Assembly: GCF_001625215.2 (NCBI RefSeq)
Contig: NC_030385.2
Span: 13,881,135-13,945,134 of the forward strand
DNA length: 64,000 nucleotides
Source: Daucus carota subsp. sativus
Lineage: Eukaryota > Streptophyta > Magnoliopsida > Apiales > Apiaceae
Direction: 5' to 3'
Made by a program: the position numbers and the translations under genes. The notes beneath the pieces are model-generated. The model saw only the letters and a list, made by a program, of their open reading frames with translations, ran no database searches and was not told the DNA's origin. Below are positions 6,603 through 57,926 of this stretch, in pieces; the first letter of the stretch is position 1, and every line of letters starts with the position of its first letter.

Positions 6603-6629
6603 TCAACACCGGCGACTACTGGCCGGAGA

Positions 6630-35895: not shown

Positions 35896-38130
35896 CTAGT
35901 CGAGAAGCCGCGCGTTGCGGCATCCCATAAAAATTATATTAACGATTCAAAATTTATATTTGTAGAATAAAATAAATTTGCGACGGGCTATAAAAATTAT
36001 AATAATGATTCAAAATTAATATTTGTAGAATAAAATAAATTTATATTAAAAGCATCTTGATGCAATACCAATATTAATATTTAAAATTGCAAAATTGGGT
36101 TATAATTCATGAGTGAAAAAATGAAAATTAATTTTCACATGCAATTAACGATTTAAAGTACAACAAATCTTAATTTTAATTATGTTTTTCTTAAATAATC
36201 ATGTTCTTCAATGACATTGTCATTACCTTTTACAAACACTGCTTCTTAGACATATACACCACCCTTGCATATAAAAAGCATACAATTTTTCAACATAACT
36301 GATTGAAGACATCTAACCACATACATCGAATGGCCAATATATAATACAGACAGTAAGGTTGTTAGAACATAGGTGTATAAAAGCGTAAAAGATATTGAGA
36401 TGCAATTCTGAAACCATCCGTAGTTTTAATAGAGATAAACATTATGTTCGAGTTGAAGATAGTATAATTATAAAAGAATAACCAATAAACATGTATCACT
36501 AACAGTTAACTTTATTGATGTTTTCATCCATTAATATCATGTCAAGACTATATTTTGTCACGTGTTTGAATTTGTCGACTCCCACATCTGACAAACTCTT
36601 AGTCTTATAAGCCAATCATCTCTATCGTCATGCTAAGCGTCTAGCATAGTGTAATTCATTATTGTATTAGATGGAGAAAATTAATAGGCATAAAAAATTG
36701 ATTATGTTAAATTTTATGATATCTGGCCTCAATTTATAGAGGTTGATTTAAAAAAATACCGGCTTATCAAAAATATTTTCTATTTTCGATATACACCCTG
36801 TTCAAAAATATGGTCATAGCTTTGGAAGAAAAGCAAGCCTTTTTCAGATCAAAATAATTAAAAAAATATCGAATTCTGAGTTGATATTTATTAAGGTAGG
36901 TAGTTTTTATTTTTGATATATTGAAAAGGATACTTTTGAAACTTTTTTCTAATATATCCAAAACTTAAAATAATAATTTTTATTTTTGATATTTTAAAAA
37001 TTAAAACCATAATTTAAAACTTTCTTCCAATAATTTTGATATTAAAAAAGGTAGGTAGATTTTTTTTGATATTTTGAAAAAGGTAGTTCTGAAACTTGCT
37101 TCCAATATATCCGAAACTAAAAACGGTAATTTTTATTTTTGATATTTTTCACCCAAAAATTCCAAAAATTTAGAAAAATAGAACGAAGCTTTTTGACATC
37201 TTTTCCAAAAATATGGACATAGTCTTGCAAGAAAAATAAGCCATTTTCGGTTTCAAAATAATTGAAAAGAACGAAGTTATCTGAGAGGCGCCACTTATAC
37301 GCCCCTCGTTTCTCCTTTATATAAGTATACTAGTTGAGAAGCCGCAGGCGGCCTATATAAATTATATTAAGGATTCATATTTAATATTTGTAAAACAAAA
37401 TGAATTTGCAACGTCTTATAAAAATTATATTAATAATTCAAAATTAATATTTATAGAATTAAATAAATTTCATATCATAAACATCTCGAGTATAAAAAAA
37501 AATACGTGATAGTATATCCTTATCATTAATGTATGAACTCAAATCCACGAGTATATTAGTGTTTTTGATATATAATTTTTCCAGAAATATATAGTCATAG
37601 TCTTGGAAGAAAAAGTAAGCTTTTTTCGTAAAAGTTAACAAAACAAACATGTCGGATGAACAAAACAAATATTATAAAAGAATGATAACAAACTTATATC
37701 ACTAACAATTAATTTATTAACCTTTTCATCCATGCCTTTTTCGGTATCAAAATAATTGAAAAGAAGTTTTGAATACTGATTTGATATTTATTAAGGTAAA
37801 CATTTTTTATTTTTGATATATTGAAAAAGGTAGTTTTGAAACTTTCTTCCAATATATCCGAAACTAAAAACAGTAATTTTTATTTTTGATAATTTTAAAA
37901 TCAGATCATAATTTGAAACTTTCTTCCAATAATCTTGATACTAAAAAAGGTAGGTAGATTTTTTTTATATTTTGAAAAAAAGTAGTTCTGAAACTTGCTT
38001 CCAATATATCCGAAACTAAAAAATATAGTTTTTATTTTTGATATTTTTCATCCAAAAATTCTAGAAAATTAGAAAAATAGAACGGAGCCTACACGCCTCT
38101 CGCTTCTCCTTTGTATAAGTATATTGATGA
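35896..38130 (-). mobile_element. Non-autonomous Helitron A (minus strand), with Helitron B nested
   Basis: Read on the minus strand: the 5' end is TC followed by ATATACTTATATAAAGGAG (interrupted by Helitron B three bases in), and the 3' end is a GC-rich hairpin GCCGC-AACGC-GCGGC followed by TTCTCGACTAG and a host T (35896-35935). Host A and T flank the ends, as expected for Helitrons. The interior is AT-rich with repeated TTTTGATATTTT-type modules and no coding capacity. Confidence 0.75.
37330..38127 (-). mobile_element. Non-autonomous Helitron B (minus strand), nested in A
   Basis: 798 bp. Minus-strand 5' end TCAATATACTTATACAAAGG; 3' end hairpin GGCCGCCTGCGGC, then TTCTCAACTAG and T (37330-37360). 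Ends and interior match Helitron A closely (for example, GAGAAGCCGC plus AATTCAAAATTAATATTT), so both belong to one family. B inserted at the A/T dinucleotide 3 bases inside the 5' end of A. Confidence 0.78.
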
Positions 38131-38417
38131 TTGATTTTTCTTTTTTGAAAATTGATGATGATTGATTTAATACTTCTATTTTCTCCAAAATAAATAAATA
38201 AATTTTAAAAATAGCTAGATATCAATGTAAATTATAATTGCTGTTGCCTCTTTTCTACAGTACTACATACATGCTAATTTTCTGCCCGGAAACATGCTAC
38301 TAATTACAACCTTGCCATCAGCTTTTAGTGGCCAGCATTGTGACACGCAGGCCAAGCTTTCTACTGCCCACGTGCACGCATCCATGACAAAAGCACACGG
38401 AGGATGTAAACACACGG
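38131..38417. other. Spacer before the Helitron genes, probable 5' end region
   Basis: No gene. Candidate Helitron starts (TC after A) occur at about 38221 and 38318 but lack the usual TCTATACTA-like consensus, so none is called. Confidence 0.35.
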
Positions 38418-39431
38418 ACCTAAAAACAATGAAAAAAAAATTAAAAAACAAATAATAGAAACTACACAAAAGAAGAACAGAGCAAGAAGAGGTGGCCAAG
38501 CTTCCGCGCGAAGCTTTCTCGCGGCCTGCAAGGACGATCACCCGCCTGCAATATGTAATATTTTTCTATTTTTTAACATTTCAAATTTCAAATTTCAAAT
38601 TAGAGTTGAGATTAGTACTTTTTATTAGCTATTGCATCTTCTTCCTGAACACGTAGTTTACACTGCAAGCTTTGTAATTTCTTTTCACAGGCCATGGCAA
38701 AAGTATTACTGTTGTTTACTGTCGTCGTTTTCAATTCATCAATGTTTTTCTTCCAGTAGTTTCATTAACTGTGCACGTTTTGCTGTAGGATGAAGACGAT
38801 TCCACGAAGTCATGGCGTCTTTTCACTTCCGAAGATATGGTCCAAGGTATCTTTCTTGGCTCTAATCTGCTTTCTCAAAGTTGTTTACCATCATTTGGTG
38901 GATAATAGTTTTATGTTTACTTCGTCATATCATGTGTATTTATTAGGTTACAAGCCAAAAAGTGTTAGGAAGCGCAAAAATTTTGCAGAGAAAGAGAATG
39001 TCTCTGGGAATTCGTCTAAAAGATTTTCTTTTCCTCTCACTCCACTGACACCAAACAGCTTAGGTAAACAGCACTTATTGATTATAAGTACATACGTTTC
39101 AAGAATGTAGTCTTTTAAATGATATGAAGAATAATTTCTCAAAACCATTCAGGTGAATCACAAACAGCAAATGCAACTCCTGAGACTTTAAACAGTAGGA
39201 CATCCACCTTGGAAGATGGAGGTGCCTTTTCAATCTGTTTATAATCCTGTGTTTATTATTTTTCTTAGATATTATGAATTGCTAACATTAGGTTATATGT
39301 GTATGTTGTTTTCTTAAGGACTTGGCAAGAGGACTATTTTTAATAGGACAGTACAAAATCAAATAGCAACACCAACAACTCCGCTCTCTAACATTACTAA
39401 TGTCTTGGGAAGTCCGCAACTTGCTAATAGG
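38418..39431 (+). repeat. Copy 1 of a 1,014-bp tandem duplication
   Basis: I see no difference from 39432-40445 at any place I compared; the open frames at 38790-39110 and 39804-40124 translate identically. It contains the promoter region and first five coding exons of the Rep/helicase gene. The junctions share GGA (38416-38418, 39430-39432, 40444-40446). The fifth exon of this copy runs into the second unit and stops, so copy 1 alone encodes only a truncated N-terminus. Confidence 0.95.
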
Positions 39432-40445
39432 ACCTAAAAACAATGAAAAAAAAATTAAAAAACAAATAATAGAAACTACACAAAAGAAGAACAGAGCAAG
39501 AAGAGGTGGCCAAGCTTCCGCGCGAAGCTTTCTCGCGGCCTGCAAGGACGATCACCCGCCTGCAATATGTAATATTTTTCTATTTTTTAACATTTCAAAT
39601 TTCAAATTTCAAATTAGAGTTGAGATTAGTACTTTTTATTAGCTATTGCATCTTCTTCCTGAACACGTAGTTTACACTGCAAGCTTTGTAATTTCTTTTC
39701 ACAGGCCATGGCAAAAGTATTACTGTTGTTTACTGTCGTCGTTTTCAATTCATCAATGTTTTTCTTCCAGTAGTTTCATTAACTGTGCACGTTTTGCTGT
39801 AGGATGAAGACGATTCCACGAAGTCATGGCGTCTTTTCACTTCCGAAGATATGGTCCAAGGTATCTTTCTTGGCTCTAATCTGCTTTCTCAAAGTTGTTT
39901 ACCATCATTTGGTGGATAATAGTTTTATGTTTACTTCGTCATATCATGTGTATTTATTAGGTTACAAGCCAAAAAGTGTTAGGAAGCGCAAAAATTTTGC
40001 AGAGAAAGAGAATGTCTCTGGGAATTCGTCTAAAAGATTTTCTTTTCCTCTCACTCCACTGACACCAAACAGCTTAGGTAAACAGCACTTATTGATTATA
40101 AGTACATACGTTTCAAGAATGTAGTCTTTTAAATGATATGAAGAATAATTTCTCAAAACCATTCAGGTGAATCACAAACAGCAAATGCAACTCCTGAGAC
40201 TTTAAACAGTAGGACATCCACCTTGGAAGATGGAGGTGCCTTTTCAATCTGTTTATAATCCTGTGTTTATTATTTTTCTTAGATATTATGAATTGCTAAC
40301 ATTAGGTTATATGTGTATGTTGTTTTCTTAAGGACTTGGCAAGAGGACTATTTTTAATAGGACAGTACAAAATCAAATAGCAACACCAACAACTCCGCTC
40401 TCTAACATTACTAATGTCTTGGGAAGTCCGCAACTTGCTAATAGG
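39432..40445 (+). repeat. Copy 2 of the 1,014-bp tandem duplication
   Basis: Directly follows copy 1 and is continuous with the rest of the gene. This copy provides the promoter, start codon (39708) and first exons used in the model. Confidence 0.95.
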
Positions 40446-43400
40446 AGCACAATCAAAACATCCATCTTGGAAGATGGAGGTACCTTTAAAATCTGTTTAC
40501 AAACCTGTCTTTATTTTTGTTTGTTAGAGATTAAGATTTTATAACATCAAGTTATATGTTTTTTGGTGTTTTGTTAAGGCCTTGCGAACAGGACTATTTT
40601 TGATAGGACAGGGCAAAATCAAATCTCAACCCCAACAACTCCGCTATCTAACATCACTAATGTTTTGGGAAATCCACTACTTACTAATAGAAGCACAGCT
40701 AACTTACATCTTGGGAATGGAACTCAAGAATCAAGAAAAAAGCTTTTCTCCAGCATTTCATCTCATAATGGAAAATTGAATGTCGGTGCTAATTTAACAC
40801 GTACTGGGAACGCTGTGAAGAAAAGATTTGAAGAAACAACAAAAACCCTTTTTCCTGAAAAAGCATCTCAGAATGAAGAGAAGACCAGATATCTGCAAGA
40901 TGATGACATTGGTATGTACCTTATATTCTAATACTTTTAATAGAAAATTTAGCTACACATTTTTTGATTAAAATGTAATTTCTATTTCAGAGTGTTCCAT
41001 TGCTACGGACTGTGTGTTATCTGAAGATTCAGACAGTGAATTCGGTTGTGGTTAGTTATTAATTCATAGTCAACTTCATGTTATAACGTTTGATAGGTTT
41101 CTTTAGTCCATACAAATTACTATGCTCTGACTATCAATTGGACTTTGTTTTAACAGATTCTTCCAGCACTGATGAAGATTACAACACTGACATGGATGGA
41201 CATTCGGACAGTGGTTTTGTTCTCTCCTTTGTGAAATCTTTGTTAATAGTATGCTTGATCAAAACATGAAAATATCCACATCTAACAAAAAAAATTTTGT
41301 CAGGAACCGAAGATCATAGCGAGTTTGATACAGTCAAACTACTTCAAGAGGAATATGTTAGCCTTGGAAGTCCAGAATCTATATGTCCAAAATGTAACGC
41401 ACGACTTTGGAAAGAGGAGCGCACGAATAAAAAAGTCACAAAAAGAAGTCCAATTTTCTCACTGTGCTGCAAGAAGGGAGATGTTAGCCTTCCTCCGACT
41501 CCTCCCACTCCGGATTATCTACTGGATCTCTATACTAATAAGGAAACTGCAGGTTATTTCCAGCGTAGCATCAGGCTATACAATGCCATGTTTGCTTTTA
41601 CATCAACAGGTGGAAATGTTGACCACTCTATAAACAATGGAAGAGGTCCATATGTCTACCGACTAAATGGACAGAACCATCACGTCTTTGGGCAGTTAAT
41701 TCCTGATGATGGCCAACCACCAAAGTATTGTCAACTCTACATTTACGATACAGCCAATGAAGTTAATAATAGACTTCGTTGGGTTAATGTTGAAGATCAG
41801 AAAACAGTTGATAAGAATGTCATTGAAGGTCTTATCAGCATGCTTGATGAGACCAATGAATTGGTTGGGAAATTCCGTATGGCGAGAGACAGATTTGAGC
41901 AAGCTGACTTTATTGATTTAAAGGTAGAACTGAAGGTCTGCAGATCACAGAGTGGCAGAGAAAATCATATATCATCATCTGATGAGGTAGCTGGAATCAT
42001 GGTTGGGAATTCTGACAATACCACTCCAGATCGCGACATAATAGTAGAGCAAAAATTTGGTGGCTTAAAGAGAATATCGTATATTCATCCGAAGCTCATG
42101 GCTTTGCAATATCCTCTTCTATTTCCAAATGGTGAGGATGGTTACCACGATCGGATACCTTTTCAGAGTGCTGACAAGAATGCTCCAAAGGATTCGGACA
42201 TGATTTCAATGAAGGACTACTATTCATACAGATTTCAAGTTAGAGCAAATGAAGGTCTGTTGTAATTAATGAGAAATTATATTTTCTGTCTATTCCCAAA
42301 TCTCAGAATTGCATACAATTTATCAGCTGTGTATTTATTGCAGGCCTGACTCCTAGATTAGGAGGAAGACTTTTCCAACAGTACATGGTCGACGCTTTCT
42401 CCTCAATTGAGCAGACTAGGTTGTGGTGGTTTCGTACTCACCAAACAATATTGCGTAATGAATTGTATACGCATATTTCTGATTCTGTTAGGAAAGGCGA
42501 TGCAAACTCCGCAAATGTTGGTAAAGGTGTGATATTGCCTGCTGGATATGTTGGTTCAAAGCGCTACATGCAGCAAAATTTCCAGGATGCGCTTGCTGTC
42601 TGTCGCCATGTGGGACACCCTGATATTTTTCTCACGATGACCTGTAATTCAATGTGGGATGAAATACTTAAGATGATGACCTATGTGCCTGGATGCATCC
42701 CAGCCAACTGTCCTGATATAATTTCCAGAGTGTTCCGATTGAAGTTAGAGCAACTCACCAATGATATTAAAAAAAAATCGCACTTTGGTAAATGTATTGG
42801 AGGTGAGACTTTTATCTAACTGGATATTCACTTCCTTATGATTCTCTTTTCTAATGTACATATTTCTATTCAATTGCAGTAATGTATGTTGTGGAATTTC
42901 AAAAAAGAGGACTTCCACATGTACACATGCTGATTTGGCTTGACGGAGCATCCAAAAAGTTCTTAAAAGAAAATGTAGACAAATTTGTATCTGCTGAAAT
43001 TCCGGACCCTGAGCTCGATCCAATTGGTTATGCTGCAGTCAAAGCTTATATGATGCATGGTCCCTGTGGTTTGCAGAATCCCAAATCTCCTTGCATGAAG
43101 AATTTCAAGTGTATCCGTCATTTTCCAAAGAAGTAAGATCCCACATTTAACTCTTTCAAATTTTGCTACTAATTTTAAATCATTCAAATCAGCCGCTGTC
43201 ACATACTTACCTTCTTCCACTCTTAATAGGTACTGTGCTAGAACTGTTTTTGATGACAGTGGTTTCCCACTATATAAGCGGCGGAAGCAGAATATTACGG
43301 TTCATGTACACAAGGCTGACTTGGACAATCAGTGGGTAGTCCCGTACAATCGTGATCTATTGGTAAAATACCAATGTCACATGAATATTGAGATATGCTG

Positions 43401-46129
43401 TCATGCACGGAGTATCAAATATCTCTTTAAATATTGTCTAAAGGGGCATGACACTGCAACTGTTCAAATCACTAGACGTCGCAAGAAGAATCAAAATAAC
43501 AGTGCTGCCGAGGTGGTTGATGAGATCCAAGCATATTTTGACGGTAGATATGTTTGTGGTTCTGAAGCAGCATATAGGATCTTTGGCTTTCCTATTCATC
43601 ACAGAACTCTTTCTGTTGAGAGACTTCCATTTCATTTGCCAGGTCAAAAAAGTTGCACATTTCGTGCTAATGAACCTCTGCACAAAGTGCTTGAGCGTGA
43701 GAAAGAAAAGCTTAGCAAACTTGAAGCATTCTTTATGTTGAACACTGTGGATGTTGCAGCACGTTGTTACACGTACGATGAAATACCACAACATTATGTC
43801 TGGCACGACACTCTAAGAATGTGGAGAACGAGGAAAAGAGGCAACCAAATTGGACGACTTTCGTACACGCATCACAGTAGCGGTGAAGTTTGGTACTTGC
43901 GCATGCTACTTACAAAGGTTCGAGGACCTACATCATTCGAACATCTCAGAACAGTTAATGGTGTTGTTTGCCAAACTTTTCGTGATGCCTGTAAGGAATA
44001 TGGATTGCTGGATGATGACAAAGAATGGCATGATGTCCTGGACCAATGTGCAGCTGGTGGACTACCACCACAAATCCGTCAGCTGTTTGTACATATCATA
44101 GTTAATTGCAAAGTTACTGATCTTGCAAGCCTGTGGAATAATCATTGGAAACAGATGGTAGATGACATATTGTTGAAGCGTCGTCTACAAAGTAAAGATC
44201 AGAAACTAATTCTCAATGATATGCAACTACAATTTTATGCGCTTGCAGGTATAGAATCTTCTCTTAACTGTAGCTGAATTTTAGAATATGTCATCCATAT
44301 CTGTTAAGACATATATTTATGTGATTATACAATGTTAATTTGAATTATATGCAACTACGATTTTATGCAACTGTATTTTGTAAATCTAATGTTAACTATA
44401 GGTGTAGATTAAGTAAATGCTATGACAACCATATTTTGTTAAGTGATATGTTGCTGTAATTATTTAATTTTAACTTCAAAATGCAGAAATTGATGATTTA
44501 CTTCGGGCAATTGGCAAGAGCTTGAAGACATATTCTCAGCTGCCGCAACCTCCAGATAGTTACTTGCATCATGGTACAAACAACCTCATTCTTGAAGAAA
44601 CTAACTACAACCTGGCAGAAATGAAGTTGGAACATGACAATCTTATTGCCAACTGCAATCTAGAGCAGTTGAGTGTTTATGAATCAGTGCTAGCATCAGT
44701 TGCTTCTGGTGAAGGTGGCTTATTTTTTGTATATGGCAGTGGTGGCTGTGGGAAAACGTACATGTGGAGAACTCTAATAGCCAAATTAAGATCTCAAGGC
44801 GACATTGTTCTTCCAGTGGCATCCTCTGGGATTGCTGCCACTCTTTTACCTGGAGGCCGTACAGCTCATTCTCGCTTCAAGATTCCAATTGTGCTTGATG
44901 AATATTCAGTTTGCAATATTGGCCACAGTTCAGATATAGCTGAGCTTATCAAGCAGACAAAACTCATTATATGGGACGAGGCTCCTATGCAACATAGGTA
45001 TGCGTTTGAGTGTTTGGACAGGTCACTTAGGGATATTATGAAGTCTGTTGATCCATTACGTGCAGAGTTGCCATTTGGTGGAATCACTGTTGTGCTCGGT
45101 GGTGATTTCAGGCAGATACTACCTGTAATAACCCAAGGAGACAGAGGTGAAATAGTATCTGCCTGCATCACCAGATCACGCCTTTGGTCCATTTGCAAAA
45201 TTTTTTTGCTTACAAGAAATATGCGGCTTAATGAAGGAAAGTCTGAGAAGGAAGTCCAAGAACTTCTGGAATTTGCCAAGTGGGTATTGGATGCAGGCGA
45301 TGGCAAACTGCCTGTTCCAGACAAGAATTTACATCCAGATGCAAAGGAAGATGATATTTTGATTCCTCCACAGTTCTGTGACATTGAGAAACAGAATTCG
45401 GTTGAGAATATGATTTCAAGTACCTTTCCTGATTTTCTGCAGCATTGCCAGGATCCTAAATATTTGAGTCGGAGAGCCATTTTAACACCTACCAATCAAA
45501 CTGTTAGTCATCTAAATTCGCTCATTGTTGACAAGTTGCCTGGTGAATCTTTGTCTTACTATAGCGTGGATAGTGCTGAAGAGTTTGGTGGTACGGAGGA
45601 AGATTTAAACCATGCTTTCCCAAATGAGTATCTCAACTCCATTAACATTCCAGGAATGCCACCTCACCAGCTCAAGTTAAAAGTTGGAGTAGTTGTTATG
45701 TTGATGAGAAATTTGAACCAGACATTAGGTCTATGCAATGGGACCAGAATGATTATCACAAAATGTTTGAGATTTTGTGTTGAGTGCGAAGTTATATGTG
45801 GTTCATTTATCGGCACACGTCATTTTATCCCACGAATGGAGTTATGTCCCAGTGATACAAGGATGCCTTACAAGCTTATTAGGAAACAAATGCCTTTGCA
45901 GATTTGCTATGTTATGACGATCAATAAATCTCAAGGTCAGTCACTTGAAAATGTTGGTTTGTTCCTTCCTAAGGGTGTTTTTACACATGGGCAGTATTAT
46001 GTAGCCATTAGTAGGGTTACCTCTCCGCAGGGATTAAAGATTTTCGTTGATGATGACAGTGGCCAGCCTACCAATGTCACTCAAAATGTCGTGTACAAAG
46101 AAGTTTTCTACGCTTTACCAAATGCGTAG
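39708..46129 (+). CDS. Helitron Rep/helicase (HUH nuclease fused to PIF1-type helicase)
   Basis: Rolling-circle transposase. My model has 13 exons: 39708-39716, 39803-39860, 39961-40077, 40167-40235, 40333-40479, 40579-40911, 40991-41050, 41157-41213, 41304-42254, 42344-42802, 42880-43132, 43230-44248, 44487-46129. All are GT-AG and sum to 5,175 nt (1,724 residues) with no stop. The first exon codes only Met-Ala-Lys. The N-terminal part is Ser/Thr-rich with repeated TPTTPLSNITNVLG. A Cys motif (CPKCNARLW, near 41386) precedes the Helitron_like_N domain. The Rep HUH motif is PHVHMLIWL (about 42915) and the Tyr motif YLFKYCLKG (about 43420). The helicase has Walker A GSGGCGKT (about 44735), IIWDEAP, GGDFRQILPV, and C-terminal TINKSQGQSLENVG and YVAISRV. 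All catalytic motifs are present; it looks functional. Confidence 0.92.
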
Positions 46130-46774
46130 CATCTTCTGTCTAAGTGTTATAGATTTGTAAATTATGGTTTGTACGGATCTATCCCGGTTCATTTTGTTGT
46201 ACTTGACTATCCTTCACTGTAATGTTATCTTACTCTAATCACTACTTTAAACAATTTTGGCTTTATTGTTTATTCACTGCATTGTATTCGCTGTTGTACA
46301 AATTTTGAAAAATCTTGCTTCAATTTTCCTTGAGCAGAGGCAATTGCTCATACATTAGCTACATGTTTTGCCACTATCATTTAATACATTGCTATCAAAA
46401 TGTTGATATGAGGTATACTATTCTCTGAAAGAAAGTAATGCTCGAGCAAACATCTTGCAATTGTAGTGTACCACGATCATCTGCTTCATAGTCCAGAACA
46501 CTAATGCCGAAAGCAATACTGGGAGTGGAAAATGGAAACCAAAAGCAATTACTTTGCAGAGCACTGATGCTACAAGACAACTGATATTTTCAATTATGCA
46601 TCTTATGTCTACTCCTTGAAACAGTGAAGTAAAATGATAGAGCACCAAGATTCTTTATCATGATAACAACCAGCCAAGAAAGGAACAGTGAGGAGTACTG
46701 AGCACTTCAGAGTAATGTAGTAACCCGTGTCTTTAAATTCAAGTTTGCTTCAAACAAACATAATTGACAAAAGC
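46130..46774. other. Spacer between Rep/helicase and first RPA gene
   Basis: 3' UTR-like sequence, then no supported gene. The last 100 bp may hold the promoter of the RPA gene. Confidence 0.5.
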
Positions 46775-47853
46775 ATGGATGAAATCCCATACCAGATGAT
46801 CTCCAACCTACGCCCTAACGCAGCAACTGACTGGAGGCTTCAAGTGCGATTAACAAGAATGTGGAGAAATATTAATCGGAATGCAGAAACAGTTCCGGTA
46901 AACTTTATTTTCGTTGATGCATTGGTAAGTTCAACTATTTCAGCATGCAAATTATACAATCTTGGACTTTTTGATGTTAGTAATTGTAGTTTTCAATTTA
47001 TAGGGCGGACGCATTCATGCATGGATTCCTCCACAACACTTCCAACAACTAGAGAATAATTTTATTGAAGGAGAAACCTATGTTGTGCATAGGTTTGTGG
47101 TTAGGCGATATTTGCCCATGCAAAATGAAAGATGTTTCGAAAATGATATTTATATCCAGTTGAATCATATGACTGAAGTTTTTGTTATTGGAGGTGTGGA
47201 TTACATCCCGCCTCACGTGTTTCAATTCACTGATTTTGATGCTATAGTCGATGCTGCAAGACAAAACCAATACCTTATTGGTGAGTATTTTTTGTTATGT
47301 ATATAGAATGAAATTAAAAATTTCACGTAAATCTAACTCTATGTTTTCTTACTTAGATGTTGTTGGGATTTTGCAAGCAGTTGGACCGCTTACTCCATTC
47401 AGAAACAAATACAATGTCCAAGAAAACTCTATTCAGTTTACCATCAGTGATATGTTGTTAGTATTTTAATTGTTAGTCTCTATTATTTTATAAATTTTAA
47501 AAATTTTAACAACTGATAAATTGTATCAAAAAATGAATAGCACATCCACGAAAGTGGTTTTCTACAATGAAATGGCTCAGTCTTTTGATCAGGCCGTCCG
47601 TGATGCTGTCCGACACCCAATAATTGTTATCATCTCAAGCTGTAAAGCTAAATTCATGCAAGGTACTTATCAATGCACTATATTTATGTTTTCTAACAGC
47701 TTCATAAAAATTTGGTACACTTATGTTTTAGATGAGCCAAAGTTGACGGACTTAACACCGACAAGGTTTTTCATAAATGAAAATAATGAGGCGGTGGAGG
47801 ATCTTAGGAACGCACTGAGGTCTGTAATGCAAATAATTTTATTCCTAAGCTAA
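46775..47853 (+). CDS. RPA70-like protein 1 (truncated, OB folds only)
   Basis: Single-strand DNA-binding RPA large-subunit-like protein. Probable exons: 46775-46924, 47004-47280, 47357-about 47450, 47541-about 47662, 47733-47853. The start MDEIPYQMISNLRPNAATDW is followed by the first OB fold (LTRMWRNINR, FIFVDALGGRIHAWIP) and the second (DVVGILQAVGPL, STKVVFYNEMAQSF, PIIVIISSCKAK). It ends after DEPKLTDLTPTRFFIN with a short tail. The C-terminal zinc-ribbon OB fold present in the two sister genes is absent here, so this copy is truncated or a short form. Splice sites of exons 3-4 are less clear than the others. Confidence 0.7.
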
Positions 47854-48479
47854 ATTCCTTCCTACGATCTTGACAAGAAATGCAATTGTTTCATGCAACA
47901 GGTTGGCTAATTAGTTTCATAACTGAGTCACTGTGATTCAAGCAAGCAATGTCCTTTCTCTGCTCCTTTCAGTTCCTTTCTACCTCAAGTTGGTATTTAT
48001 TTTAAGAAGTTGTTTAAAACTTAAGATGCTTTTACAATTCATCCATGCTGTTATTTGGTCTATTTCAAAGTTCAAGTTTGTAAACTAGATGAATGATGCC
48101 ATGTACTGTATTGTTTTCTATTAACGTATTAAAAAGTGCTACTTTAGAATGTTGGCTTTGTAATTGGTCTGCTCAGCAGATTAATATTTCAGTTCTACCG
48201 GCATATTCGCTTTGCACACTAATGTTTATGAACTGCATTCTTTTTTACTTAACCATATGCAAGATTTTCAAGCAAAAACCAACATTCATTCCAGTAATAA
48301 ACTAATAGAACAATCTCCAGCATTCATACAATCTCAGGCGCAATGACATTAGTGGCCATTACAGTTGAAGATTAAATAATGACATTTGTCACAAAATAAA
48401 TAACCATTGACAAAAGTTATGCATAATAGAATCAACCAGTCTGATCCTAAGCTGTCCATTGGCAAAATGATTCTACTAC
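47854..48479. other. Spacer between RPA 1 and the B3 gene (convergent)
   Basis: No gene recognised. No zinc-ribbon remnant of the first RPA copy can be read here. It contains the 3' ends of two convergent transcription units. Confidence 0.45.
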
Positions 48480-51021
48480 TTACTCTAAAAGAGTAACTCG
48501 GAATGTTTTTTCATGTACGTAGTCCATCTGAATTCTTTGCCCCTCTTCAAACTCATTTCCCACTGTGAAATCAGTCCACCCACTCCCAAGCCTGCACTGC
48601 CTATTCCTCCTCAAGACGGATACATTGTAGACATCATCATCGGAAAGGAGCCTGATGTTTGTACCACTTCTCCAGCTCTTAAACGTAGAGTACAACAGTT
48701 TGGGTAGATACTGCAAAAGAAACAAGAAGTTATCAGTGATATGTAATTATACATTATACCATGTTAAATACAAAATAAAAGTCACATCTTACCAGTCCGT
48801 GACATTTTTTATCAACATGAGAGCGCTTTAAAGTCACTTGGAATGATACAATATTGATATCCTCCACCTCTTCAAAATCAGCCTCCATGTTGTTCTCTGG
48901 ACATGAATGAAAACTATTAAAGCAGGAAATCAGGAAAAAAAGTGTAATTAGAAAAGAACTCTCAACAACCTGCATCTTGATTCACCACCTCTTCCAAAAC
49001 ATAATCCACTGCTGTAAATATGAAATCATAAAATTTGTAAGTCTATGATCCTTTAAGAAGATGGACAAATAAGCAGTACAACTTCAGGTACTATGCCAAA
49101 ACAGAGTAAAATAAGGCCTATTTTTCAATATCAACCGAACCTGGATCTTCGTTGCCAATCTCTTCCATCCCAACATCTGCAACTACAAATTAGACATGAC
49201 ATTATTTTACGACTCTAGGTTGCTTTAAGAATAAAGGCTGAAGAAAAAATAGTTATTAAAATTTATACTCACCACCTACACTGCTGTCTGAGATCATTAT
49301 TACATCTGGCTGTGGCACATTGTTAACTGTTGTCGACTGGATTGTAGACTCACAGTTGTACTTGAATTCCATCCCAGAGAACTTGAATAAGCTAACCGCA
49401 AAAGTTGATGCTTTCACATACTGGAAAACAATCACGTCGTTCTCATCCACCCCATACCGGCGCAAAAAATCCCTCATGCCTGTAAGGAAATTGCGTCGTG
49501 GACAAAATTCGGCATAAGACGAGTCTCCATCTCGAGTAATTAATTCAACCTTTTCTGAGAAACTTGCAGATCCACTTTGCATAAAAACTCTAGGTATTTC
49601 CTGCATTTTTATATCAGAACCACAGTTAGGAAAAATATAATAAATCTCTATAGAACCCAAGTATGGACATACCATCTGCCCGCCCCGTAAGAAGCTTTCG
49701 TTGACAAATTTGAACCAATTCATTACTCCAGTCTTTTTACCACCGCCTGAAATATATCATTAGGTCTTTGCAAGGCAATGAATGGTATGTCATGATTACA
49801 CAACCAAAATATATATCTTACCTGATTTGTTACACTTAGAGAGAATATCATCGTCGTACACACAAATTTCAAATTTCTGTTTCTTTCCTGTCATATGGAA
49901 AACAACAGTGTCTCCTTCCTTCAGTTTCCAAGCCTTTGCTAAGGCATACCACTTTCTATCAAAATACACCTTCCCGTCATCCCATATTAGCTTTAACTTG
50001 CAAACCAGATTTTTGAAGCATAGCTTCAGTTTTTCCATACTTTCATCGAGTCCTAATTTGCGGCATGCTTTTCTTTTCAGAATCTAAAAAGAACAGCTTT
50101 GTCAATGCAGTATATTCTTATGTTACAGGTTCAAAATACCTAACAGACAGTATTAAACTTTTAACTAACCTTATAGTACTCCTTCTTACGCAAATGTTTT
50201 TGGTTTACCACAAGATCATACAGGCCACTCCCATTGTTATAAACATTGTGTGACAGTGTCCCACAAAGTTTGTCGATTTCTAGATCTGAGAACTCAAAAA
50301 AACTACGGTCGGCAGACAAAGCTTCATCAGACTTAGGACTTATCCAGTAGTTAATTTCCACACCATAAGGATTATAAATCTCTAGGTTGAAACTAGGTCC
50401 TCCAACATACTCAAAAATTAACATATAATAGGGTTTTATACAGTAGTAAATCATCATCTTTTCTAAGCCTTCTATCCATGACCTATCCTTACGAAAAAGA
50501 GCATTCCACACAACCTTGCCTGGCACGAGTAACAGTAGCCTCTCAGGCATTTTTTCGCCAAATTCATCACAAAACTCTTTCGGTAAAATCTACAAAAGTA
50601 GAGGTTCACTGATGTAAAAAAAATTTACCAACTATAACATGCAATTTCAACTTATGCAGTAAGCAGTAGCCACTTACAACAATGCCTGGAATATAGTTCG
50701 ACGCGAAATTTTGGCATACAAATTTTGTTTCTTCCTCCACATAGTCAGTATGAAATAGATCTAACAACACACAACAATCAAATTGCAAAGAAAACTTACT
50801 ATAAGCACAGAAAGATTCAAAACAACAAAGGCCTTTCGTATTCTCCCAAAACTTCAGATTATGTATATTGTCACTACGAGAACATACCTTTTCCTTCCGT
50901 GATCGAAGGCCTGAAAATATTATGTAAGCTAATTACTATATATTCATTAAAATTCATTAAAATACACCAAAACTTTTGCAGATTGAAGTACGAGATCGTA
51001 CCTTGAAGACGAAGAAGCCAT
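48480..51021 (-). CDS. Multi-B3-domain (REM-like) protein inside the Helitron
   Basis: Eleven minus-strand exons, 5' to 3': 51002-51021, 50888-50910, 50678-50760, 50170-50589, 49822-50083, 49673-49746, 49273-49600, 49141-49176, 48970-49011, 48793-48896, 48480-48710. All are GT-AG and total 1,623 nt, 540 residues, no stop. The N-terminus MASSSSRPSITEGKD leads to a first B3-like domain (IVILPKEFCDEFGEKMPERL, FEYVGGPSFNLEIYN). A second starts at KLKLIWDDGKVYFDRKWYAL (EGDTVVFHMTGKKQKFEICV). A third is IPRVFMQSGSASFSEKVELI (FQYVKASTFAVSLFKFSG). An acidic linker is followed by a fourth, FQVTLKRSHVDKKC, LPKLLYSTFKSW, GSGWTDFTVGN. Plant B3/REM proteins bind DNA in the nucleus. It lies antisense between RPA genes. 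Its target is unknown; a captured host gene is the simplest origin. Confidence 0.8.
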
Positions 51022-53004
51022 GCAGATTTACTCTGTAGACCTTAGTTGAAGGACCAAATGTGTAGATAGTGAAAAGTCTTCGAGAAAATGATTATGTTGT
51101 ACAGACTTGGGCAAAGTTTATGTCCCTTCGGTTTTGAGTGGCTCAAGAAACGGACACTCATTTACTCCCCGTGCAGTCATTACCAGTTTTTGGGTCTACA
51201 ATTGTGTCCATTTCAGCTGTATCTTTTTTCAACTTTGATCACTTGGCGCTTCATCTGTGTAATATCCGAACTTGGATATATTATAATTTATTTAAGAAAA
51301 TCTTGGTTTAAAATATACATGATTAAACTACTTGAAACAATTAAAATAAATTAGACTTGCAACAAAGAATTACAAAATACATTTTAAAATGAGTATAGGT
51401 AATTTTTTCATGTTTAAAATTCAAAAACTAGATATATCTAAAATAGAGAAGTACATTTGTGCAATGAGGACTAACTTCAACGTCCATTGAACTGTCAATT
51501 TTGTTCTTTATATTAATATTTGTACACAAATATTAATATTTGAGCAAATGTCAATAAAATGAAGAAGTGAAAGTAATTGAAGAATTTTATAATTTATATT
51601 TATTCTTAATTGAACACATTTTTCGTTCTTGCTATTCGTTTTTTGTATAGCAAGAAATTATATATACCATTATTTTTTTAATGTCCCTTTGATTTTGTGC
51701 ACGTAATTAGAGCGAAGAAAGTCCAATTGTCGTGTTAAAGTACGTGTTATTGCTCTAATATAACCAAGTATAAATATGTAATGTAAAATACTAAAATTTG
51801 ATATTTGATGCTAAATATATAACCAAGTATAAATATAGTGCTGTAATTGGCACATAAACATATGAGTGACAAAATACATTAATAATAAAATAATATTGAT
51901 AAATATAGTTATGTATTTTAAGATTATTTGATTAGAATATAACTTTTTATGGATTAATTAGGTTCAATTTTGCATTTATCATTGGATTATAAATTATATT
52001 TTAGCACCAAAAAAAACATTTTCTTTTCAAATTATAAATCAGATATCTCCTTTTTAATATTAACAGTCAAGTTGCTCTAACAAAACTTCAAACATCAAAC
52101 ATACACCGAGTAAATGTACTACTCCAGTAAATGTACCTCAAATTCTCCTCTAGCAATGATCCAAAAACTGATCCAAATTTAAAGCAGTAAATGGTACTGA
52201 TCCAAATTTGGATCACCGCTGTTCACTGATCAAAAATTGGATCACCTACTTTATTATAAAATAATAATTTTATAATTTCTATATCTTTCGTTCATCGAAC
52301 AAATTAATTTGTGATTTAGTTGACCAGATTATTTCTGTCCTCCAAGATAATAAAAATATTGTCCGTAGCTATTCATATCGTTTTGAGATCCTTGAGCTTC
52401 ATCTTCATTTTCTTGATTTTAAGATACTTTGACAGGTGTTAAAAATAATAATTAAATTAACTAATTTAACTAATTAAATAAGTAGTTAACAATAATTTTT
52501 ATTAAATTTAAGTAATATAATATACAAAAAGTAATTTGTTACATAATTTGGATCACGCTGCTGGAGTTCATCAGAAATTTGGATCAAAATTTGGATTAGT
52601 TGGTGATACAAATTTGGATTATGTAATCACAACTGCTAAAGATGGCCTAAAGCACACTTCAATTAGATCCTGTACGACTCCTGTCCGCAGTCACTTTTAC
52701 CATTACAGTGGAAGTCTCCAGCTTCTCCAACAATGCATCCATTATCAGCCATACACCTGTTCCCATCTCTGCTTAACATAGCTGTAAACCCTAAATAATT
52801 GAATACCTGTGACAACATTAAGGAAGACATTACTGATTACAAACATAGCAAGGCAGTTCTCTCCCACATTCAATTGTTGTAATTACTGAGGCTTCAACCA
52901 GGTATGACATCCGTTTAAAGGCACAACTACTAATCTTAATGATTTCTCACCTATTTCTCATATATATTCGTTATTACACTTCATATGTTCTATAGGTTTG
53001 TGCA
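51022..53004. other. Helitron interior without a gene; possible MITE
   Basis: 51022-52080 is AT-rich; the left end should contain the B3 promoter. At about 52140-52650 CCAAATTTGGATCA-type motifs occur in both orientations (GATCCAAATTT on the left, AAATTTGGATCA on the right), suggesting an inverted-repeat MITE. I cannot fix its ends or target duplication. 52650-53004 should hold the promoter of the next RPA gene. Confidence 0.4.
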
Positions 53005-55264
53005 ATGGAACTAAACAAGTTTGACTCTATCAAGAGTTTAACAACAACGCAGTTCGATTGGAAGTGTAGGCTAAGATTACAGTCACTTTGGAAAGGAGTT
53101 AACTACAAAACGAAAGAGTTCTGGGGCTTAAATATGATATTCATTGATGATTCAGTTAGCAAACTAACCTTCACAATTTACAAGTTTAGTCCGAATAGAT
53201 GCTATACATACTAACTATGATGAAACTGCTTTTTCTGTAGAACGATAGGATTCAGGCTTTCGCCAGTACAAAATATTGTAAAGATGTTATTACCAACTTG
53301 AAAGAAGGTAAAATCTATATCCTTACAAACTTTAGAGTTAAGGACTACGTTGGAGACGAAACTTTCCGTCCAGTGCGTAACAACAAGCACATTTATTTTA
53401 CAACGCACACCAAGTTGGAAAACGATGTTGAAGGGGACTTAAAAATAGATCGACATGCTTTCGATCTGTTCTGGCTAGGAGATATGGAGAAACTATCAAA
53501 CGACAATCGATACTTAGTTGGTAAATCTCTTCCTATTTGAAGAATAGGAAATTATTACTCCATTTAGATTCTTTAATAGATTTATAATAAAATTTACTGT
53601 GTTCCTCAATTAGATGTTGTTGGCATGGTGAAAAATGTTCGTTCTATCAAGTCGAACAAAAATGAATCAGAGAAATTGCTGACAAAGTTCGACCTATCTG
53701 ATGGCAGGTATGACGTTTGAATGATTCAGATTATGTAACGTAGTGAATAAAATTATTTTACTTCATGATATTATTTTTTTTAAATCACTAAAGCTGCGCC
53801 GTGGCTGTAACTCTTTTTGACGACTTTGGTGTGGAGTTCCAACAAACTTTAACATGTTGCAAAGAGCCTGAGGTGTATGTAATACTGTGCGCCGCCAGAG
53901 TTACAATTTATGAAGGTGAGATGATAGATACCAATATCACAGTGTTGCACCCACATGAACAAAACTAACCTTAATTACAGGAATGCCAAATCTGACAAAC
54001 TACCCAGCAACAAGATACTATATCAATCCTGGCCACTACAGTGTGCAGCAGATAACTCAGAGGTAAACTAAATACAAGATTCATATGTAGATCAGATGTT
54101 TTTTTAAATAACAATAAATTTACTTTGCTTTTTACCTCCAGGCTTTTTGCAAAGAAAACTGAACCGGTTGAGTCGCCACCACCTGAGGAAATGAACTACG
54201 AAACTATGACTGTGAAAGAAATTCAAAGTCTGGCTTCTGATTCGAAGGAGGTTATTTATATTCTCTGTGACACTATGTTTTGCACTTAACAGAAATTACA
54301 CATTTCTTATTCACGTGGCCTTTTTTCCTTAGATGAAAGTGAAGTGCCACGTCAAAGTTACTAAAGTTGAGGTGGACACGGCTTGGTATTATGCAACATG
54401 CACAAAATGCCCAAATGAAATACAACGCAATGAAGGAGTTTTCAAATGCTTGGACTGTAACAGGATTATACCATACCCTGACAAGAGGTTTAGTTACTAT
54501 TGAAAACTCTAAAAAATAATACAGCCACATAGAACTTATGTTGTTCTCCAATTCTGCAGGTTCCGTGTTTGCACTTTGTGCAGCGACAGCACAGGGTCAA
54601 TTGCTGTTATATTCCTTGACGAAGAAGTTAGTCGGATAATTGACAAGACAGTATTCGATCTTGAGGCTGAAGCTATTCAGGTTAATTATTTGACACAACT
54701 TATTTGTCCAAAAAGATTAATCTTATTATATTACTAATCCTAATTACTGTTGCTTAAAAGGAAAAAAATGAAGACAAGTTTCCAAAGGTGCTGAAGCAGT
54801 TTGAAAACAAGTTGTACAACATAACTCTCAAGGTAACAGACAACAATCTTAAAAAAGGTTCGAGAGTGTATGAAGCAGATGAAATTGTTGACAAAATTGA
54901 GAGTGGAGCAAGCTTTGATCCTTCAGCAAAGATAGACAGTGAAATGCGTGATGAATCTGCAATTAATGTAAGACAATTCCAGTGAAATATATGTACAGTT
55001 TGTTACTAAATTAGAAAAATGTCTAATTTAGTTGTCAACAGCTCGCAGATGACAACACCAACACGCCGCACACTGCAAAATCTTCAACCAAAATAAGGCC
55101 TCGGGTTGATATTGAGAGCGTGACTTTTGATCCTAAAGAAGAGATACCAGAGAAAGCCAGGCATACCGAGAAGAAGATGAAGGTGAAATTTTGTCAAAAT
55201 TGTAATTAAATTTTTACTTCAATTACCATTGTCTAAATTGTTATAATTTCCATTCTTTCAGTGA
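53005..55264 (+). CDS. RPA70-like protein 2, full length
   Basis: Eleven exons: 53005-53154, 53241-53520, 53614-53707, 53794-53915, 53981-54062, 54142-54250, 54333-54487, 54560-54680, 54761-54967, 55042-55182, 55262-55264 (stop only). All phases fit, giving 487 residues. The start MELNKFDSIKSLTTTQFDWK leads to the first OB fold, then the second (DVVGMVKNVRSIKSN, CAVAVTLFDDFGVEF). The C-terminal OB fold has its zinc ribbon: CTKCPNEIQ, CLDCNR. The tail is charged (IESVTFDPKEEI, RHTEKKMK) and could be a nuclear signal. Known role of the family: coating single-stranded DNA; in Helitrons it presumably protects the displaced strand. No start exon ambiguity. Confidence 0.85.
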
Positions 55265-55556
55265 ATGAAACTGCTGCGCTACTTTTGCAAATGGGTGAAA
55301 GCTTTATTAACTTTTGGCTTATCAAGAATTTAAACTACCATGTTTGTGTTGTATAACTTTTTCGACAATTTAAGACTATTTGCTGTAATGATTTGTACTC
55401 TTCCCGAAATGACGTCAAAACTTCAGCCGTCACCCATCTCAGCATGTATTCAATTTGTATTAGCTGGAACAATATTTATTGTTCAACATATGCTTTGACA
55501 GGAGGAGTAAGTTGAGTTCATTTATATTAGATATAACTGCAACACCAAAAAAGTAA

Positions 55557-55585
55557 TGACATATATATATATATATATATATATC
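55557..55585. repeat. (TA)n microsatellite
   Basis: About 12 TA units just upstream of the third RPA gene; may overlap its promoter. Confidence 0.8.
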
Positions 55586-55632
55586 ACTATCACTCACTAA
55601 TTTCTTTACAAAGGTTTACTGGCAAGAACAAA

Positions 55633-57675
55633 ATGTCAAGCAGGTATACAGCTTTGGCCTCAATTACCACAGGAAGCAATGAAGACAAAATCAGAATCAA
55701 AGCTCGGATCATACGTCTCTGGAGAGGTATGACAAAAACAGGAGAACTCTTCACCAGTTTCAACATTTTGCTCCTGGACAACAAGGTAAAACACAGTTCC
55801 TCTTATCTACAATTTCTTAAACAAGCTGATTCTGAAATTTGAAATGCACCGAATATATTGTTTCAGAACGGTATCATACATGCTTTCATACCAGCCATAT
55901 CAGCTCATGACTTTGAAAGGCAAATCAAAGTGGGAACTGTGAACATCATCACAGGTTTCACAGTGCAAGCATACAAGGCTTCAGATAAATTCAGAGTTGT
56001 TCACGGTCCAGTCCAACTGATATTTTCTAAGGATACGAAAATACAACAAGTTGATGACAAAGGAACAAACATCCCAACAGAGATTTTTGATTTTTATGAT
56101 TACAGTCAAGTGAAAGATCATGCTGACCGGACGGATTTCTTGATAGGTTTGGAATTTTCTAACAAAGTGACAAAAAAATCAACAATATAAACTATTATCA
56201 TTGTGCTAATCATGTTTAAAACAGATGTTATCGGGATCATGACAGACCATGAGGTCCATGTAAATGATATCACAAATAGGCATGGAGTACGGCAAGAGCA
56301 GGCCAAGTTTGTCATCACTGATGGAAGGTTGGCATTATTTTGGCAAGCTGTTTTACAAAAATACAAGTTTCCTGCTTTTTTTAACTTAATATGTTAAGAG
56401 TAACAGATCAAATCTGAAGATTACTTTGTGGGATCAGTATGCAAAAGATTTTGTTAAAGCAGTTTGGGAGAAAATGGAAACTCCTGTCATCTTAATTCTT
56501 GCCGGTTGCAGAGTACAGCTTTGGAACAGTAAGCTATTCCAATTGTTCAATTGTCTGACTAATAAAACATAACCTATTTTGAACAATAGCAGTGTAAAAA
56601 TTTTTTACTAGGAGTTTAAGATCATTGTTTTCTGTTTTCTGTGTAGATGAACCAATTATAACACATGTAGCAGCTACAAAGTACTATTTCAATTACAATC
56701 ATCACAGTGTGAAGCAACTTAGGATGATGTAAGCACACCTACTTCTACATTTTCTCATGCAACTTATTTTTCCTGATGTTTTTTTATGTATCCTTTTCAG
56801 GCTTTCTGAACCTGAATTTGCAAAAGCAGTCCGATCCACAAACCCAACAAGGATAGCAGAATTGTTGACAATTGAAGCAATCAGAGCTTTAGGCCCCGAC
56901 TATATTCAGGTAAACAGTATTTATGCTTTCTTTCATATCAACCAAATTTTCGGCCGACAATCTTAACAAAATTAGTTTATGTATAGCGACAAGTGCTCAC
57001 TCATGTCAACATCATTCAAGTAGACGAGAACCAGATTTGGAATATTATGGTCTGCACATCGTGCAATCTCGAAGTTGAAGCCAAAGGAATCCTGTACTTC
57101 TGCTCTGCATGCCAGAGGATTGTTCCATACCCTGAAATAAGGTATGCACAATATAATAAAAATAAATGGACTGTCCATCAAATAGACATTAATAAAATTC
57201 TAAAACACAGATTTCGTTTGGTTGTGCTTGCTTCGGACTCAAGTGGAACAATTCAAGTTGTACTACATGATCGAGAGATTAGACAATTAATTGGCAAGAG
57301 AGCACGCCAGGTTGTGCAAGAGGTAAGGGTGTCATACGATGTGATAAATTTCTTTTCATTATCATCTTTTTCCTTTGATAATTTTGTGATGTCAACAACC
57401 ACCAGAACTCTCTTACTGGGAAATTTCCACAATGCTTCCAGCTTCTGGCTATGAAACCATATACCATCAAACTAACACTAAATGAAGCCAACCTTGTGAT
57501 GAAAAGTATTTTGTACTTTGCAACAAATATCTGTCATGGGTTTAAGATGGAGGAGACAAGAGAGATTGTACAGCAGACAACAACCACAAATGACTTTCAA
57601 GCTACAACTTCCAGTACTCAAATACCAGGCCTTTCCAACCTCAAATGTGAATCCTCAACAGCAACAAAAGAATGA
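55633..57675 (+). CDS. RPA70-like protein 3, full length
   Basis: Nine exons: 55633-55785, 55867-56146, 56225-56327, 56401-56528, 56647-56728, 56801-56909, 56987-57141, 57211-57322, 57406-57675. They sum to 1,392 nt, 463 residues, no stop. Exon phases match RPA 2 over the shared part, showing common descent. The first OB fold has RIIRLWRGMTKTGE and NGIIHAFIPA; the second DVIGIMTDHEV and LKITLWDQYAK. The zinc ribbon is CTSCNLEVEAKGILYFCSAC followed by RFRLVVLASDSSG. The tail is Thr/Gln-rich. Sequence identity to RPA 2 is low by eye, so the copies are old or acquired separately. Confidence 0.88.
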
Positions 57676-57892
57676 ACAACAACAACAGCACTTAAGTTTC
57701 AGCTTGGTCATTACACTACTTTTGTAATGATGATGTTTTAATTTCCAGTTAAATAGCAGGTTCATTAGATTACTCTGCAGCAATCAAGACTTTAACATTT
57801 TGTTAATCAGTTACATTTGTGGAATCAAATGTAATATATCAAATGTAATATATATATTCTATATGGAATTTGCGTTGGAGAATTCTTTTATT

Positions 57893-57926
57893 TTTCGAAG
57901 CCCAGCAACGCGGGCATAAATACTAG
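57893..57926 (+). other. Helitron 3' terminus: hairpin and CTAG
   Basis: GCCC (57899-57902) and GGGC (57911-57915 region) form a small stem around AGCAACGC, followed by an AT spacer and CTAG (57923-57926), then T. This is the usual transposition terminator of Helitrons, about 250 bp after the last RPA gene. Confidence 0.8.

Follow-up and report, generated by a model that had tools for sequence, protein, structure and literature searches.

The stretch analysed here, a 64,000-nucleotide window of the carrot genome (Daucus carota subsp. sativus; contig C5, NC_030385.2; C5:13881135-13945134), contains a 19,705-bp Helitron that carries, in addition to a Rep/helicase (RepHel) gene and three RPA-like genes, an antisense gene coding for a protein with four B3 stretches. 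Genome searches were run against the assembly of 441,086,747 bases in 11 contigs. In window coordinates, the element and its parts are as follows.

38222..57926, + strand: Helitron element, TC...CTAG, between A (38221) and T (57927); delimited by homology to a second copy and by the same ends at other loci
38222..38262, + strand: 5' terminus common to other elements, beginning TCAATGTAAATTATAATTG
38416..39429, + strand: unit 1 of a perfect 1,014-bp tandem duplication, in which the copy of exon 5 hits a stop; the second copy has one unit
39430..40443, + strand: unit 2 of the duplication, source of the start of the open RepHel gene (from repeat comparison and the gene model)
39708..46129, + strand: RepHel gene, 13 exons, 1,725 codons; HUH Rep in exons 10-12, PIF1 helicase in exon 13
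46775..47853, + strand: RPAa, short RPA-like gene, 5 exons, 256 amino acids (aa); DUF223 and a weak REPA_OB_2 match
48480..51021, - strand: B3 gene, 11 exons, 542 aa, four B3 stretches in a REM-like layout
52124..52646, no strand: 523-bp stretch without counterpart in the second copy (a gap between aligned blocks), probably a nested small element; the word TGATCCAAA is repeated in it
53005..55264, + strand: RPAb, RPA70-like gene, 11 exons, 487 aa
55633..57675, + strand: RPAc, RPA70-like gene, 9 exons, 461 aa
57900..57915, + strand: 3' subterminal GC-rich hairpin (GCCCAGCAACGCGGGC)
57923..57926, + strand: 3' terminus CTAG, then T

The boundaries were fixed by comparison with the second copy (hereafter copy 2; C5:24996478-25015295, 18,818 bp), which has the same gene set in the same order and both ends. 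Homology between the two starts exactly at window position 38222, where TCAATGTAAATTATAATTG follows an A, and stops at 57926. When the first 199 bases were used as a genome query, all 8 matches (window and copy 2 included) started at base 1 and were preceded by A, and each begins with TC, as a Helitron 5' end should. The equivalent search with the 3' end returned 19 matches, 17 of which reach the end; CTAG followed by T is found in 16 of these, the window among them, and CTA followed by TT in the remaining one (L014). The folding energy of the hairpin is by itself unremarkable (-4.9 kcal/mol, z -1.22); its sequence is conserved at the 3' ends of other copies. The original prediction, made from the letters of the DNA without database searches, had correctly described the hairpin-CTAG-T 3' end, had placed the start at 38131, and had left the 5' TC end to be located by comparing copies; that comparison moves the start to 38222, directly after an A. 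That the feature is a Helitron with these ends and genes we regard as practically certain; it belongs to a known kind, the RPA-bearing plant Helitrons, of which it is a complete and in this respect unusual example.

The RepHel model comprises 5,175 nucleotides, equal to 1,725 codons including the stop, with GT-AG introns and no internal stops, and the exons linked in this way place the Rep and PIF1 helicase in one protein with a single open frame. Its legible motifs include FQKRGLPHVHMLIWL at residue 760 and YLFKY at residue 902, which we take to be the HUH (here HVH) and Tyr motifs, and GSGGCGKT at residue 1261 and IIWDEAP at residue 1338, presumably Walker A and Walker B. Pfam searches recovered Helitron_like_N (PF14214; 8.9e-52) and, in exon 13, PIF1 (PF05970; 4.2e-87). 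The first RepHel exons are spanned by the duplication, the two units of which are identical; unit 1 reads 122 codons and then a stop, and unit 2 yields the complete open gene. This duplication, which the original prediction does not mention, is either recent or an assembly artefact.

RPAb and RPAc each contain DUF223 and Rep_fac-A_C above the curated Pfam cut-off and REPA_OB_2 below it, and RPAa gave no Rep_fac-A_C match in Pfam. The B3 protein is recognized by Pfam B3 (PF02362) at 3.3e-24. In a structure model of its exon 4, the nearest match is the REM protein At1g16640 (PDB 1yel; probability 0.99, with a weak E-value of 0.077), and further matches include the B3 domains of TEM1 (7et6, two chains) and VAL1 (5yzy, rank 6), all with E-values above 0.05; a search of the B3 protein against PDB sequences gave no matches. 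Host-like B3 domains sampled from the genome (n = 11; L088-L098) reach at best an E-value of 0.09 against domain 1 of the protein, and two of them match domain 2 weakly (5e-4 and 1e-3). At the level of gene content, the original prediction stands: its 13-exon RepHel of exactly 1,725 codons was reproduced to the codon, with the Rep HUH, Tyr, and PIF1 helicase motifs complete; both RPA70-like genes are full; the B3 gene is intact; and the frames of RepHel, RPAb, RPAc, and B3 are unbroken, in agreement with its description of a Helitron with every coding exon open. Its count of four apparently intact genes holds for these four but omits a fifth, the short RPAa.

Copy 2 is broken inside four of the five genes, with one-base indels in RepHel (a deletion in exon 10), RPAb (exons 1 and 6), and B3 (exon 4) and two premature stops in RPAc; the stop of RPAa comes four codons early. 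A frameshift also flagged in RepHel exon 9 was rejected as an alignment effect: relative to window positions 41214-41317, copy 2 lacks intron 8 and the initial bases of exon 9, and the reading frame continues intact across the joint. The 523-bp stretch that copy 2 lacks is rich in TGATCCAAA and AAATTTGGATCA words. Joining the flanks of copy 2 across the element gave a query with at least 41 genome matches at 95-98% identity, 41 of 41 spanning the junction (scoring covered the best 40 of 1,334 candidates; all 41 listed matches belong to copy 2's part of the query, and the joined flanks of five short relatives, described below and included in the same query, are not among them). Most of these uninterrupted sites have exactly 180 bases against 180 of the query stretch, which implies that copy 2 made no target-site duplication. 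Since all the genes lie inside the ends of copy 2 and uninterrupted sites exist, RepHel, the three RPA-like genes, and B3 arrived together. The original prediction had named empty sites at A/T as a means of verification and had named RPA and B3 genes outside the boundaries shared by copies as a result that would count against it. All of the genes are within the ends shared with copy 2; empty sites were found for copy 2, but the window insertion has no empty counterpart in this assembly.

Comparison of the two copies also allows selection to be gauged. The ratio of nonsynonymous to synonymous substitution (dN/dS) between them is 0.20 (0.15-0.27) for RepHel, 0.38 for RPAa (0.17-0.87, a wide interval), 0.26 (0.14-0.48) for RPAb, 0.27 (0.17-0.45) for RPAc, and 0.31 (bootstrap 0.20-0.56) for B3, at synonymous distances (dS) of 0.06-0.11. 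Because copy 2 is already decaying, these values are likely to be upper bounds for the period when both copies worked. On the basis of these ratios, the element genes are seen to be under purifying selection.

The association of B3 with Helitrons extends well beyond this locus, a point that the original prediction did not make. Querying the genome with the B3 protein yielded 109 rows, which were reduced by hand to 49 places, generally one per locus with its other exons dropped; two of these (C7:33894586 and C7:33909787) may belong to a single element, and some places represent tandem genes within the same element. Relative to a set of 182 Rep rows (150 of the 168 from a first search and 32 additional ones from a second), 34 of the 49 places lie downstream and antisense of a Rep within 40 kb, 26 of them within 20 kb and 17 within 8 kb; none lies downstream in sense, and one lies upstream. 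Random placement produced a mean of 0.37 and a maximum of 4 such cases in 2,000 draws (with contig C9 entered as 40 Mb, its true length being 45.85 Mb), versus the 34 observed. In a control with Pfam B3 matches (150 of 151 used), none of the 120 best-scoring matches is downstream and antisense of a Rep and 8 of the 30 weakest are; over all 150, 2 are downstream in sense and 3 upstream. When Reps are divided into two groups by the start position of the profile match, B3 is found downstream and antisense of at least 31 of the 116 Reps in the window's group and of 1 of the 34 in the other, and in sense in 2 of the 116. The sole case in the other group must be C1:21670290, which lies 10.7 kb ahead of a Rep of the window's group. 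B3 thus accompanies a good quarter of the window's Rep group, as a lower bound, and not all of it. RPA-like matches follow the same division, occurring in sense within 50 kb downstream of at least 40 of the 116 Reps and of 1 of the 34 (antisense, 1 of 116). In two further families with three loci each, the spacing from Rep to B3 is nearly constant (6,145, 6,139, and 6,041 bp; 13,368, 13,372, and 13,481 bp). Two loci (C2:31.36M and C3:41.23M) have two B3 genes in a row each, and the second genes (x08b and x07b) group together in the tree.

Both Rep and B3 domain 1 could be retrieved from 24 elements, on which trees and distances were based. The Rep and B3 distance matrices are strongly correlated (Mantel rho 0.675, with none of 9,999 permutations reaching this value), and the correlation persists in 20 nonredundant elements (rho 0.649; 0 of 9,999) and in the 12 closest (rho 0.53; 1 of 9,999). 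Most small groups are common to the two trees, and E23, whose B3 lies 28 kb from its Rep, is placed differently in them; support is weak for many forks in the Rep tree (3 of 19 starred, compared with 12 of 23 in the B3 tree). In a codon comparison that omitted E02, E12, and E23, 16 of 20 pairs were used, after removal of E03/E04 (B3 dS of zero) and of E01/E06, E01/E07, and E01/E11 (saturated dS). Synonymous distances of Rep and B3 are correlated across these pairs, which are not independent (rho 0.92), and the dN/dS of B3, with a median of 0.235, is about six times that of Rep, with a median of 0.04; in one single pair the Rep value reaches 0.66. The domain 1 alignment is without an in-frame stop in 21 of 21 elements and, in a second locus set, in 23 of 24 (L030 has one). 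By these measures, B3 is under purifying selection yet changes faster than Rep. It appears to have been inherited along with RepHel over much of the diversification of the lineage, which would make it an old component and not a fresh capture, and we consider it very likely that B3 is a standing gene of this Helitron lineage and under selection. No report of a B3 gene as part of Helitrons was found in the titles and abstract openings searched, which did not cover subscription papers and preprints; a study of pepper B3 genes (PMC10949715) contains neither "transpos" nor "Helitron," and in PMC12062965 "Helitron" occurs and "B3 domain" does not.

As to present activity, shorter relatives share about 41 bp with the element at the 5' end and 33-45 bp at the 3' end, and in five of them a 5' match and a 3' match lie 3.1-7.0 kb apart. 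Counted from the 5' end, two of the five are 99.7% identical over 1,542 bp; other pairs of loci are 98.9% identical over 1,227 bp and 96% over 1,716 bp. Such near identity suggests that elements with these ends have moved recently, and the shorter relatives L108-L113 are probably recently mobile Helitrons. They have the same ends and fall into the pairs L110/L111 (C3:37.04M and C3:14.28M), L112/L113, and L108/L109, which are 96-99.7% identical where compared; at the 5' end of L111, the first ten bases (TCTATGTACA) stand three times in tandem, as though the beginning of the element had been copied several times. Together with the intact frames and the purifying selection, these relatives lend indirect support to the idea that the window copy may still be able to move. 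There is a substantial, though less than even, chance that it is dead despite its open frames, because it is silenced or because the 1,014-bp duplication or the presumed nested stretch hampers it. The stop that ends duplication unit 1 is consistent with this, as is the synonymous distance to copy 2, according to which the pair split some time ago, but unit 2 still provides a complete open gene, and the nearly identical relatives with the same ends speak for mobility, though another RepHel may have moved them.

For a functional element of this type, the established Helitron route suggests a mechanism in which RepHel would nick at the TC end, its PIF1 domain would then unwind one strand, the element-encoded RPA would coat the single strand, and the hairpin-CTAG end would halt the process, with the strand joined between A and T. 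For the B3 protein we predict a role in regulating the element as a REM-like DNA-binding factor, which we think fairly probable. It would bind the element's own non-coding DNA and thereby set the timing of transcription or the freedom from silencing; the most plausible setting is reproductive tissue, in which the REM/B3 factors of the host are active. A Helitron with a standing B3 gene that codes for such a regulator is the overall explanation that we favor, with good confidence.

Several observations weigh against this explanation. The regulatory role is deduced from placement, selection, and fold class only, and the exon-4 model has a predicted local distance difference test score (pLDDT) of 66 (with the exon 3 part excluded), a best PDB E-value no better than that given above, and unrelated folds at ranks 4 and 5. 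When the intergenic DNA of the element was searched for enriched words, one stood out, which lies inside the stretch without a counterpart in copy 2, and no binding-site array was found. For 15 of the 49 B3 places, no Rep lies in the expected position within 40 kb (an RPA-like match lies within 40 kb on the opposite strand in 6 of them, on the same strand in 1, and on neither in 8), and 85 of the 116 Reps in the window's group have no B3 among the listed matches within 40 kb. The B3 dN/dS rises to 0.49-0.74 in the trio E15/E16/E22. Finally, L099-L102, which are Pfam B3 matches beside other Helitron Reps, do not match domain 1; they may be other B3 domains or another B3 gene. The enriched word itself, TGATCCAAA/AAATTTGGAT, was dropped as a candidate B3 target motif on account of its location in the presumed nested insert at 52124-52646.

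Within a regulatory role, two more specific functions can be conceived. REM proteins typically have several B3 domains each, and REM genes are associated with reproductive tissue. The multi-B3 layout and fold class of the element's protein would fit an ordinary transcription factor that times RepHel and RPA expression in the reproductive meristem or germline; this is possible, though we would put it well short of probable. VANDAL elements are transposons of the Mutator type. Some of them code for VANC, a precedent for sequence-specific anti-silencing proteins encoded by transposable elements (available part of PMC5735166), and in female reproductive tissue, host REM factors direct DNA methylation and bring in RNA polymerase IV (available part of PMC12270911). 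These two precedents make an anti-silencing variant worth testing, in which B3 would keep the element active, either by opposing silencing in the manner of VANC or as a decoy that deflects the DNA methylation guided by host REM factors. Like the VANDAL elements, the carrot element has an extra gene for a fast-changing, here predicted, DNA-binding protein, and rapid change under purifying selection could be expected in an arms race. However, the excess of B3 over Rep dN/dS also fits loose constraint, and the targets of VANC are often tandem repeats (PMC5735166, as far as available), whereas no long, VANC-like array was found in the intergenic DNA of the carrot element; the two proteins are likened by description only. 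We therefore regard a specifically anti-silencing B3 as doubtful. Unlikelier still, if only slightly, is the broader version in which a whole Helitron lineage would use its own multi-B3 REM-like protein to counter or redirect host REM-guided DNA methylation at the element, as a rolling-circle counterpart of VANC of independent origin, with the B3 gene acquired once, long ago.

The remaining alternatives deny B3 any role in the element. Helitrons often capture pieces of host genes, and captured fragments are present in over 90% of maize Helitrons (available part of PMC3288121), and B3 could by this precedent be a chance-captured host fragment carried as a passenger. Its recurrence on the same side and in antisense in many distinct Helitrons, the congruence of the Rep and B3 trees, the purifying selection and open exons across large distances, and the remoteness of domain 1 from the sampled host domains make this very improbable, and it is refuted in the main by the co-inheritance with Rep. 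That two separate Helitron pieces merely flank RPA and B3 genes of the host, a notion to which the spread of genes over 20 kb and the antisense B3 lend themselves, is ruled out to near certainty by the order and both ends of copy 2 and by the uninterrupted sites that fit its joined flanks.

The reading of B3 as a standing gene of the element sets this Helitron lineage apart from the plant elements described in the papers searched. The available parts of two reports describe putative autonomous plant Helitrons as RepHel with or without RPA (PMC4683698 and PMC3288121), and according to the latter such elements consist of Rep, helicase, and RPA. The Mothra sister family in rice (PMC4683698) resembles the carrot element in its TC/CTRR ends, hairpin, insertion between A and T, RepHel with an adjacent RPA gene, and short relatives with shared ends; it measures 8-15.5 kb, and the available part of the report mentions RepHel and RPA and no B3, whereas the 19.7-kb carrot element has three RPA-like genes and the antisense B3. 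Maize ZmhelB1 and ZmhelB2 likewise combine an intact RepHel with RPA1-like domains, but the RPA lies behind the helicase in the same open reading frame and not in separate genes as in carrot (PMC3288121, in the part available). Host REM/B3 factors (At1g16640, PDB 1yel; PMC12270911, available part) share the B3 domains; the B3 of the element, in contrast, is carried by a transposon and co-inherited with it, and its domain 1 is far from the 11 host-like B3 domains sampled. An extra gene class that is co-inherited and selected would alter the picture of plant Helitrons as RepHel with or without RPA, turn some "B3 genes" of plant annotations into transposon genes, and give direct access to the question of how Helitrons evade silencing or select their tissue. 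An intact copy with mapped ends and closely similar short relatives provides a concrete system for the study of Helitron mobility.

Elsewhere in the window, a dispersed repeat at 36000-38137, present at dozens of genomic places, stops about 84 bp before the Helitron. Long open frames lie at 6603-8342 (+), 26671-28386 (-), and 29710-30708 (+); from their motifs, we take them to be GRAS-like, copia-type reverse transcriptase-like, and RNase H-like, respectively.

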